Source of the DNA: an uncultured Pelagibacteraceae bacterium
Lineage (GTDB): Bacteria > Pseudomonadota > Alphaproteobacteria > Pelagibacterales > Pelagibacteraceae
NCBI GenBank assembly: GCA_902579285.1
Contig: CACHGA010000001.1
Location: 186,001-250,000 of the forward strand
DNA length: 64,000 nucleotides
Reading direction: 5' to 3'
Shown: piece by piece, positions 7,880 through 10,544 of the stretch
How the letters are laid out: every line of letters starts with the position of its first letter
Numbering within the stretch: position 1 is the stretch's first letter
Made by a program: the position numbers and the translations under genes
The notes under the pieces: model-generated
Seen by the model: only the letters and a program-made list of their open reading frames with translations
The model's database searches: none
What the model was told of the DNA's origin: nothing

Positions 7880-8725
7880 ATGTCTAAACTTAAAGTAGCT
7901 TTTCAGGGGGAACTGGGTGCTTACTCACACATAGCATGTGAGGTGCTTTTCCCAGGAGCTGATATAAAAACTTGTCCAACTTTTGAAGAAACATTTAAAA
8001 CAGCTCATCAAGATGACAGTTATAGAATAGTTATCCCTATAGAAAATTCTCTAGCAGGTAGAGTAGCTGATATTCATTATTTATTACCCAAATATAAATT
8101 ACAAATTTATGCAGAACATTATCAGAAGGTCGAACATAATCTCTTAGTAAAAGAAAATACTGAGATTAAAGATATAAAATATGTCAGAAGTCATGCACAA
8201 GCTATAGATCAGTGTCAAAAAATAATTCAAAAGCATAAGTTTAAGACTATTATTTCAGCAGATACTGCTGGATCAGCAAAAGAATTATCTAGTGGAAAAG
8301 ATAATTCAATTGCTGCAATTGCTTCAGTGCTTTCAGCAAAAATTTATAATCTTAAAGTTTTGATAAAAAATATTGAGGATGAAACTAATAATGTTACAAG
8401 ATTTATTATAATGGGGAAAAGTGTTCAGCAACCATCTTTTGAAAAAAATAAAAAATATATTACTAGCTGTATTTTTAGGTTAAAAAGTATTCCAGCAGCA
8501 CTTTACAAATGTCTTGGTGGATTCGCTACTAATCAAGTAAATATGACAAAACTTGAAAGTTTCTCAGTTAAAAACACATTCGACCAAACAAATTTTTACT
8601 TAGATCTAGAAGGTCACATCGAAGATACAAAAGTTCAAAAAGCTCTTGAGGAACTAGGTTTTCATACTGAAAGCTTGGATATTCTTGGAGTTTATGAGGC
8701 CTCTAAATTTAGACAAAAAAAATAG
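7880..8725 (+). CDS. pheA: Prephenate dehydratase with ACT domain
   Basis: A 281-residue monofunctional enzyme converting prephenate to phenylpyruvate for phenylalanine. The N-terminus FQGELGAYSHIA and the IPIENSLAGRV segment mark the catalytic domain (about residues 1-180). The C-terminal ACT regulatory domain starts with FRLKSIPAALYKCLGGFA and includes the TKLES motif, indicating allosteric feedback by phenylalanine. It lacks a chorismate mutase domain. One-base spacing from kdsB suggests co-transcription. Confidence 0.92.
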   Translation: MSKLKVAFQGELGAYSHIACEVLFPGADIKTCPTFEETFKTAHQDDSYRIVIPIENSLAGRVADIHYLLPKYKLQIYAEHYQKVEHNLLVKENTEIKDIKYVRSHAQAIDQCQKIIQKHKFKTIISADTAGSAKELSSGKDNSIAAIASVLSAKIYNLKVLIKNIEDETNNVTRFIIMGKSVQQPSFEKNKKYITSCIFRLKSIPAALYKCLGGFATNQVNMTKLESFSVKNTFDQTNFYLDLEGHIEDTKVQKALEELGFHTESLDILGVYEASKFRQKK

Positions 8726-8748
8726 TCCACAAATTAATGATTACACAC

Positions 8749-8778
8749 TTGTAGAATTCAATTTTATATTGATATAAT
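8749..8778 (+). promoter_or_regulatory. Sigma-70-type promoter of the SRP RNA
   Basis: The -35-like TTGTAG at 8749-8754, an 18-base spacer and a perfect -10 TATAAT at 8773-8778 lie in the gap after pheA. The first base of the RNA (8784) falls 6 bases after the -10, exactly where transcription should start. Confidence 0.7.
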
Positions 8779-8783
8779 AAATT

Positions 8784-8872
8784 GGGGGCCATTCAGGCGG
8801 TTTTGATACGTTTAACGTGTCAGGGTGTAACAACAGCAGCACGAACTTTTAAAAGCGGGTTGTTTGGTCTCC
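8784..8872 (+). ncRNA. ffs: Signal recognition particle RNA (4.5S-type, small SRP)
   Basis: The two ends pair completely: GGGGGCCA (8784-8791) with TGGTCTCC (8865-8872), using two G-U pairs. The conserved helix 8 core is recognisable at 8821-8839: CAGG, 10 bases, then AGCAG, with the same 19-base length as E. coli 4.5S RNA, and flanked by CGTG/CACG pairing. The position just before dnaX is a known bacterial location. The apical loop is not the usual GGAA: TAAC occupies that place (8828-8831). About 89 nt long; together with Ffh it would target membrane proteins. Confidence 0.85.
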
Positions 8873-8876
8873 TTAT

Positions 8877-10544
8877 ATGGAAAAAAATAATTCAAAAATT
8901 TTAGCGTTAAAATATAGGCCGAGGATTTTTAAAGATTTAATTGGCCAAGAAATAATTGCACAAACAATTTCTAACGCAATAAAAATAAACAAAACACCTA
9001 ATGCTTATCTTTTAACTGGGATTAGAGGAGTTGGAAAAACAACAACTGCTAGATTAATTGCAAAGGCAATGAATTGTACCAAAAATTTTGAAACAGGGGA
9101 AATGTGTGGTGAAAAAGAAACTTGCCACTGTCGAGAAATTGAAAATTCAAATCATATCGATGTTCTTGAGATGGATGCAGCATCGAAAACTGGAATAGAC
9201 GATGTAAGAGAGTTAATAGAAAATGCAAAGTATAATCCTACCAGTGCAAAATTTAAAATATTTATCATAGACGAAGTTCACATGTTATCTAAACAGGCCT
9301 TCAATGGTCTTTTAAAGACTTTAGAAGAGCCACCAGAAAAACTAAAATTTATCCTAGCAACTACTGAAGCTAGGAAAATACCTATAACAATTTTATCTCG
9401 ATGCCAGAGGTTTGATCTTAGAAGAGTAAATTTAGAGCAGATTTTTAAACATTTAAAAAAAATATCAGATATCGAAAAAGGAAAAATCTCCGATGATGCT
9501 TTAAAATTATTAGCTCGAGCATCAGAAGGATCAGTTAGGGATGCTGTATCGTTATTAGATAGGGCATTAATTTTTCAAAGTCTCGATGCAAATAACACTA
9601 TTCAAGAAGCTGACGTAAGAAAAATGCTAGGGATAGCTGATAAATCCAAAATAATAAACTTGATTAACTGTATTTTTGAAGGAAATGAAAAAGGAGCATT
9701 AGATCAACTAAAGGATTTGAGCGATGGAGGATTAGATGCAAAAAACTTTTTAAATGATTTTTTAGAACTACTTTATTTATTTGGAAGAAGGGCAAGTCTT
9801 GGACCTATCGAAAAAGACTTATTTCTTTCGGAGGGGGAAATTAAATTGATTGATAAAATCTCCAAAGACTTAAATATGCAAGATCTTGGTTTATTTTGGC
9901 AACTATCTTTAAAAACTATTGAAGATTTAAAACTTGTTTCAAACGAGGATGTTGCTCTTAAAATGTTTGTGATGCAACTAATACATATTAAAAATTTTGA
10001 TGAAAACACAGAAGAAACAGTTTCTATTGATAAAAAAAACGAGGTTTCAGATTTAAAAGCCAAAGAAAGTATGGAAACAACTGAAGAAACTAAGCCAGTC
10101 AACTTTGTAAAAGAGCAGATGAAGAATACAGATCAAATAAAAAAACAGGATAAAAATGAAATCCTGAATCAAGAAAATTTAGAGATAAGATCTTTTTCAA
10201 GTCTTATAGATATCGCTGAAAAGAATAAAGAAATGGAACTTAAATTTGACTTGGAAAGGAATGTTAAATTATCTAAATTCGAGCAAGGAAAAATTGAAAT
10301 TAGCTTTAATGAGAATTTGAACAAAAATTTTATTAAAAAGTTGTCTCATTGTTTGCACGAATGGACAGGTAAAAGATGGATTATAAGTTTAAGCAAAGAC
10401 AATAATCTCAAGACTTTTCATGAACAAAAAATAGAAAAAAAACAAAGTAAATTAGAAAATGAAAAAAATAGTGAAGTTTATAAAGAAGTTTCAAAATTCT
10501 TTCCAGATTCTGAATTAATTGATGTGAGCGAAACAAATGAGTAA
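8877..10544 (+). CDS. dnaX: DNA polymerase III subunits tau/gamma
   Basis: A 555-residue clamp-loader ATPase. Motifs in order: LALKYRPRIFKDLIGQE, Walker A GIRGVGKTTTARL near residue 48, a cysteine zinc cluster (C...C...CHC, residues 64-85), Walker B IIDEVHML and the sensor LSRCQRFD. Residues after about 375 are charged linker and then the tau C-terminal domain. The ATG lies only 4 bases after the SRP RNA end, with no Shine-Dalgarno in between. Its 3' end overlaps ebfC by 8 bases in the classical dnaX-ebfC-recR order. Confidence 0.95.
   Translation: MEKNNSKILALKYRPRIFKDLIGQEIIAQTISNAIKINKTPNAYLLTGIRGVGKTTTARLIAKAMNCTKNFETGEMCGEKETCHCREIENSNHIDVLEMDAASKTGIDDVRELIENAKYNPTSAKFKIFIIDEVHMLSKQAFNGLLKTLEEPPEKLKFILATTEARKIPITILSRCQRFDLRRVNLEQIFKHLKKISDIEKGKISDDALKLLARASEGSVRDAVSLLDRALIFQSLDANNTIQEADVRKMLGIADKSKIINLINCIFEGNEKGALDQLKDLSDGGLDAKNFLNDFLELLYLFGRRASLGPIEKDLFLSEGEIKLIDKISKDLNMQDLGLFWQLSLKTIEDLKLVSNEDVALKMFVMQLIHIKNFDENTEETVSIDKKNEVSDLKAKESMETTEETKPVNFVKEQMKNTDQIKKQDKNEILNQENLEIRSFSSLIDIAEKNKEMELKFDLERNVKLSKFEQGKIEISFNENLNKNFIKKLSHCLHEWTGKRWIISLSKDNNLKTFHEQKIEKKQSKLENEKNSEVYKEVSKFFPDSELIDVSETNE

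Follow-up and report, generated by a model that had tools for sequence, protein, structure and literature searches.

A UAAC apical loop in the SRP RNA encoded against dnaX in SAR11 bacteria, a candidate GNRA mimic

The apical loop of the SRP RNA is widely conserved and has a known function in recruiting the receptor and in GTPase activation. In an uncultured SAR11 bacterium, a short RNA gene lying directly against dnaX carries TAAC at the place of the usual GNRA loop, which raises the question of whether this is a real SRP RNA and, if so, how such a loop could serve the receptor. The locus lies in a stretch of 64,000 nucleotides (the window), and all coordinates refer to its forward strand. 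The small SRP RNA gene (4.5S RNA, ffs; 89 nt) is placed at 8784-8872 by its alignment to the Rfam family RF00169, its fold and its position 5′ of dnaX. Alignment and fold agree on a single long hairpin shut by a terminal helix, in which GGGGGCC (8784-8790) is complementary to GGTCTCC (8866-8872) and pairs with it in the minimum free energy structure. None of 200 dinucleotide shuffles equals or betters the fold of 8784-8873 (z -4.2). The Ffh-binding core at 8818-8841 reads TGTCAGG-GTG-TAAC-AAC-AGCAGCA (TGTCAGG 8818-8824, GTG 8825-8827, TAAC 8828-8831, AAC 8832-8834, AGCAGCA 8835-8841), with CAGG and AGCAG at the 10-base spacing and the TAAC loop flanked by G8827 and A8832. The RNA thus shares with RF00169 the single hairpin, the CAGG/AGCAG core and its spacing, the terminal helix and the place before dnaX. 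It differs in its loop, UAAC (UAAA or UAAU in relatives) closed by G.A where GNRA has a Watson-Crick pair, and in its outer core pair, U-A rather than G-C. A preliminary description of this DNA had proposed an SRP RNA here with TAAC in place of the GGAA tetraloop and a different closing stem, and all three points hold. The same core in 27 of the 31 genomes of the window's genus (g1) excludes a sequencing accident, and a phage source was rejected on finding no match among 50,697 phage records. On its sequence features, 8784-8872 is a genuine SRP RNA of SAR11, ordinary in place, and the apical loop is a new variant within it whose fold, like the transcript ends, is predicted.

The locus escapes routine annotation. 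The covariance-model alignment that had been proposed as a check runs end to end across RF00169 but reaches only 24.9 bits, short of the gathering score of 40; a search of the window with Rfam at gathering score did not list it, nor did a whole-genome search with RF00169 at E values up to 10. None of 19 g1 loci reaches the gathering score and only three are visible at E up to 10. Among 13 other Pelagibacteraceae loci six reach it, with relatives L182, L183, L188, L194, L217 and L222 above the threshold, and seven fall below, one of them giving no match at all. The loop alone does not explain the low scores, since two GAAA-bearing loci (L200 and L212) also fail and planctomycete loci with UAAC, described below, pass. 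The gathering score is a detection cut-off, typical of SRP RNA and not defining for it. The SRP RNA genes of many abundant marine SAR11 bacteria therefore score too low for Rfam's cut-off and are readily overlooked.

The surroundings of the gene bear on how it is expressed. Upstream lies an open reading frame at 7880-8725, presumably pheA (prephenate dehydratase) from its position, in the same order as in P. ubique. Downstream, an open reading frame at 8877-10544 is taken from its translation to be dnaX (DNA polymerase III subunits gamma/tau), a name that we assign from its motifs and from the location of dnaX in P. ubique. Between the RNA helix and the start codon lie four bases, TTAT (8873-8876), and the ATG at 8877 is the first ATG, GTG or TTG after an in-frame stop inside the RNA gene. 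The preliminary description had noted this four-base distance and the lack of a terminator or ribosome binding site, and both were confirmed: there is no Shine-Dalgarno sequence before dnaX, and within 8600-9000 no terminator-like or promoter-like site was found from the RNA start to the dnaX start. Neither the missing Shine-Dalgarno sequence nor the gene order sets this junction apart: in a rough count such a sequence precedes 8 of the window's 55 long open reading frames, with 3 of 55 for a control stretch, and the gene order is already known. Published tables place an SRP RNA 5′ of dnaX in Sinorhizobium meliloti (PMC2573895, Table 3) and give the order pheA - SRP RNA - dnaX for P. ubique (PMC2704228, Table 1). 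The distance between the RNA helix and the ATG is 4-11 nt at all 27 g1 loci, 4-14 nt at the 36 g3 loci (of 38) that were measured and 19-21 nt at all 14 g8 loci.

A promoter-like pair lies at 8749-8778, TTGTAG (8749-8754) and TATAAT (8773-8778) separated by 18 bases, with five bases between it and the RNA's first G; the pair, with both spacings, recurs at 27 of 27 g1 loci. A consensus promoter scan missed it because TTGTAG has only three of six consensus matches in the -35 hexamer; over 8600-9000 the scan listed TACACA-17-TATATT at 8742-8770, where 1.3 pairs are expected by chance, and a second pair at 8928-8956, inside dnaX. These features suggest that the SRP RNA would be transcribed from its own promoter and that transcription would continue into dnaX, so that the RNA 3′ end would probably be made by cutting and the dnaX mRNA probably left with a leader of a few bases. 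Co-transcription, which the preliminary description had also thought probable, is likely on this evidence, and the very short gap leads to two testable predictions, that the RNA is cut at its 3′ end and that the dnaX mRNA has almost no leader. An account in which the RNA ends by termination or by 3′ processing of its own, with a dnaX promoter within or near the RNA gene, is possible but rather unlikely: closeness alone does not prove a single transcript, and AT-rich DNA limits the power of consensus scans, as the missed promoter before the RNA illustrates, but no promoter-like pair was seen inside the RNA (one there would, by the preliminary description, have spoken against its reading), no terminator-like site follows it within 8600-9000, the other promoter-like pair lies inside dnaX, and the gap stays short throughout the genus.

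Whether the loop is peculiar to one locus was addressed by a survey of the order. The family genomes were searched for dnaX, giving N-terminal homologues in 225 of 247, and 140 SRP RNAs upstream of dnaX were read as a sample of the order (123 of the window's own family, 17 of another; two g3 loops, in G466 and G586, were read by eye). All 140 loci examined have the SRP RNA at the same place 5′ of dnaX. In g1 the loop is GUG-UAAC-AAC in 21 genomes, GUG-UAAA-AAC in five and GUG-UAAU-AAC in one, with GUGUAA and AAC invariant in all 27 genomes having the locus; in the remaining four of the 31 (59-77% complete) the core is absent, as is any dnaX match at E 1e-40. Writing UAAH for UAA followed by C, A or U, the loop across the order is GAAA in 85 and UAAH in 55 of the 140 (UAAC 49, UAAA 5, UAAU 1). 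The genus g3 has UAAC in 24 of 38 genomes and GAAA in 14, its UAAC loops sitting on UCU/GGA (20), UCU/AGA (3) or a broken UCU/CGA stem (1). In g2 a single CGC-UAAC-GCG stands beside four CUA-GAAA-UAG and six ACG-GAAA-CGU, g266 and g267 contribute one UCC-UAAC-GGA each, and g4 has GAAA in 21 of 21 genomes. The loop is no oddity of this locus, being the rule in g1 and present in most of the g3 genomes sampled. The closing pair differs with the loop: it is Watson-Crick in 84 of the 85 GAAA genomes (U.G in the other) and in six of the 55 UAAH genomes (G.A 27, U.G 21, U.C 1), counts that share ancestry and are not independent. Among 398 genomes drawn from the window's phylum, UAAH within a GTCAGG...AGCAGC core occurred only in the window's own, a pattern that misses cores of the g3 type, and a survey of the class (a match in at least 220 of 337 genomes, chance matches included) gave no UAA loop among the matches listed.

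The Ffh-binding core is itself varied in places, with AGCAA for AGCAG and CAGA or TAGG for CAGG (L212, L251, L252 and L258-L262 in g3; L245 and L253 in g267 and g266). Both CAGG and AGCAG are retained in only three of the 36 g3 cores tabulated.

The genus g3 contains a genome (G410) that we infer to be P. ubique HTCC1062, because its dnaX match starts at 493,671 and the published 4.5S RNA occupies the intergenic region 493521-493664 between pheA and dnaX (PMC2704228). Its core is CCAGA-UCU-UAAC-GGA-AGCAG and it scores 37.5 bits against the gathering score of 40. The P. ubique RNA resembles that of the window in its UAAC loop, in the order pheA - SRP RNA - dnaX and in the short gap, and differs in its UCU/GGA stem and CAGA...AGCAGU core. 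It has been said to conform to well-established consensus sequences, in passages that do not comment on the loop (PMC2704228).

Placed on a tree of DnaX proteins from 83 genomes (a DnaX of sufficient length was available for 92 of the 140, and nine g1 rows were dropped as near copies), the GAAA/UAAH state changes seven times, with at least six of these changes forced by starred branches. The tree comes from a short search with SH-aLRT support only; its changes carry no direction, and the count lumps point change and replacement together. The genus g1 groups with the GAAA-bearing g4 on a starred branch (99). Some of the switches could stem from local recombination of the RNA gene, since two genomes inside g3 (G496 and G498), where CAGA is commonest, carry a canonical GGTCAGG...AGCAGCC core. 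The swap has been made several times in the SAR11 group and is probably workable, since the two loops can fold alike. Such repeated exchange between two loop classes inside one family amounts to a natural experiment on the features that the receptor reads, and makes the SAR11 family a natural test, with replicates, of the loop that contacts the receptor.

The same loop is found at a distance. A scan of genome contigs from 84,980 species for GTCAGGNNGTAAHANNAGCAGC returned 58 stretches, which were judged by eye from their flanks as 28 of the g1-type in SAR11, 16 planctomycete SRP-like and 14 unrelated. The planctomycete loci (L051, L054, L055, L064, L065, L068, L069, L071, L072, L074, L085, L086, L088, L097, L099 and L108, with L051 and L064 from one isolate and both counted) have GUAACA at the same apical place as the window RNA in 16 of 16 cases, although A or T would also have been accepted at the fifth position; since the pattern fixed all other positions of the loop, the figure is no measure of the frequency of GUAACA in planctomycetes. 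At the gathering score of Rfam 14 of the 16 are confirmed, L064 (cut by a contig end) and L099 not being listed, so that a GNRA loop is typical and not defining for the bacterial small SRP RNA. The two bases on each side of the loop, left free in the pattern, can pair in 16 of 16 loci (CC/GG 8, GU/GC 5, GG/CC 2, UC/GA 1), with one U.G in each of the five GU/GC stems. Unlike the g1 RNAs, these have two Watson-Crick or wobble pairs under the loop, and because they belong to a different phylum their GUAACA is convergent or independently kept.

Loops of this type are known to resemble GNRA. UNAC loops mimic GNRA through a variant of the U-turn (PMC5311481), and the CUAACC hexaloop of phage phi21 boxB is a UMAC loop with a GNRA-like fold and a C-C flanking pair (PDB 1NYB; PMC12550061). 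The window loop shares with it the letters UAAC and a non-canonical flanking pair; it differs in that the last base may be A or U in g1 and in that its fold is a prediction. Given that UNAC and UMAC loops have been described as mimics of GNRA, the change of letters need not mean that contact with FtsY is lost, and a GNRA-like loop is preferred over lost function. The apical loop would have been swapped for a UNAC-type loop, shut by the non-Watson-Crick G.A pair and offering a GNRA-like shape to FtsY, or a GUAACA hexaloop at G8827-A8832 if the G.A pair does not form. By analogy with the published loops, the window SRP RNA is most likely functional through GNRA mimicry, with FtsY recruitment presumably retained. 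The UNAC rule fits the window locus and 21 of 27 g1 genomes; in the other six (UAAA 5, UAAU 1) the final C is missing, which counts against the mimic. The whole reading, a functional SRP RNA with a UNAC-type, GNRA-like loop, its own promoter, read-through into dnaX and 3′ cutting, has a probability of about 0.7.

Energy calculations give a different register. RNAfold and RNAalifold favour one shifted by one base, with a UGU/ACA stem and an AACA loop that uses the first A of AGCAG. The bare hairpins have near-equal energies (+0.3 kcal/mol unshifted, +0.5 shifted), and the shifted one wins (-2.0) through an additional G-C pair within the core. In the same test g3-type 22-mers with UCU-UAAC-GGA or -AGA give no fold (0.0). 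The program's preference carries little weight, as it shifts the CGC-UAAC-GCG and CUU-GAAA-AAG hairpins as well. The shifted register was not adopted and stands as a caveat; besides taking the first A of AGCAG, it is opposed by the CC/GG, GG/CC and UC/GA stems of the planctomycetes, which suit the unshifted register only, while GU/GC fits both. Covariation cannot settle the register in g1, where the stem is invariant. A GUAA-tetraloop register was discarded, as it would have to be closed by U opposite C, A or U.

The receptor provides the other side of the contact. In E. coli the FtsY patch for the tetraloop consists of K399, R402, K405 and K406 (PMC11404819). Of 76 FtsY sequences of the order that were aligned, 69 are readable at the patch, the other seven being g1 fragments; among the 69 are eight from genomes in which no loop was read. 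All 69 retain Lys399, and the lysines at 405 and 406 are each conserved in 68. At position 402, 29 of the 30 readable UAAH genomes have T, N, S or H and one, the window's own, has Lys, with Arg in none; among 31 GAAA genomes the residue is Arg in 15, Lys in three and another in 13 (g4 6, g2 4, g3 3). In an independent-pairs test residue 402 is no different in about four of five pairs, and its link to the loop is not significant. The patch thus does change at 402, out of step with the loop; the counts are suggestive of a compensating change, but it was rejected as unsupported by the independent pairs, and loss of Arg402 may be permissive at most. All 22 distinct g1 FtsY sequences also have Phe401 and Asn408. 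As to Ffh, the motif GSR..R...GSG is kept in 25 of 25 g1 sequences read, as GSRRKRI in each; 14 of 14 others that match the motif expression have GSRKKRI, and three further Ffh of the order read GSRRKRI with GAG for GSG (g4), ASRKKRI (g6) and SSRKQRI (g9). The preliminary description had proposed inspecting the Ffh M domain for matching changes; its motif shows only a conservative change, which is common to the GAAA-bearing sister g4 (one Ffh read).

It is accordingly improbable that the loop no longer contacts FtsY normally, with RNA-assisted recruitment weakened or rewired and FtsY changed alongside. The distribution of Arg402, the 29 of 30 UAAH genomes with neither Arg nor Lys there, the Phe401 and Asn408 of g1 and the occurrence of C, A or U as fourth base of its loop would all fit a weaker or altered contact, but the rest of the patch is held almost without exception, 13 of 31 GAAA genomes likewise lack both Arg and Lys at 402, the independent pairs show no significant link, the window's own FtsY has Lys402, and GAAA also occurs in 14 of 38 g3 genomes. 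A degenerating RNA, its loop drifting under streamlining and AT bias with SRP RNA function relaxed in SAR11, is very improbable and already disfavoured: sub-gathering scores at the window locus, at 19 of 19 g1 loci and at seven of 13 other Pelagibacteraceae loci could be read that way, as could the tendency of P. ubique RNAs, SRP RNA included, to be short (called not statistically significant; PMC2704228), but the invariant GUGUAA and AAC of g1 and a loop that is GAAA or UAAH at 140 of 140 loci are the opposite of free drift, and the Ffh motif is intact.

A bolder extension of the mimicry reading is offered only tentatively, and is unlikely to hold in full. The repeated GNRA-UAAH exchange in the SAR11 family, mostly with a wobble or mismatched closing pair and in lineages without FtsY Arg402, might be a natural rewiring in which only Lys399, 405 and 406 are still essential, and the g1 loop may be a GNRA-like G(UAAH)A hexaloop. 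Natural departures from GGAA at this loop include a 10-base loop in moss chloroplast SRP RNA (PMC5115805) and GGGA and GAGA in archaea (PMC2905702); these are longer or still GNRA, and none is UNAC. In the portions of the literature on natural SRP loop variants that were consulted, no UNAC loop and no G(UAAH)A hexaloop assigned to SRP was found, nor was any paper found on a URRC tetraloop in SRP RNA or on the SRP RNA tetraloop in alphaproteobacteria. Older SRP RNA databases list URRC loops, and novelty in print is therefore uncertain.

Some further observations were made along the way. The G4 region of FtsY reads mostly TKLDTSAKGG in g1 (L169 is the ftsY of the window's genome), TKLDSSAKGG in g4, TKFDSNAAGG in family f2 and TKLDGTAKGG in E. 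coli. A genome of the window's class (G189; 1.0 Mb, 96% complete) has the core GGTCAGG-TCT-TGAT-TGA-AGCAGCC, with a UGAU-type SRP loop, and it yields no FtsY above the TIGR00064 cut-off, only an Ffh-like frame (locus L181). Two contigs labelled Alphaproteobacteria bacterium SAT166 and Euryarchaeota archaeon NAT11 (L058 and L106) carry a g1-type SAR11 SRP RNA and the start of dnaX, and the archaeal label of the latter looks wrong.
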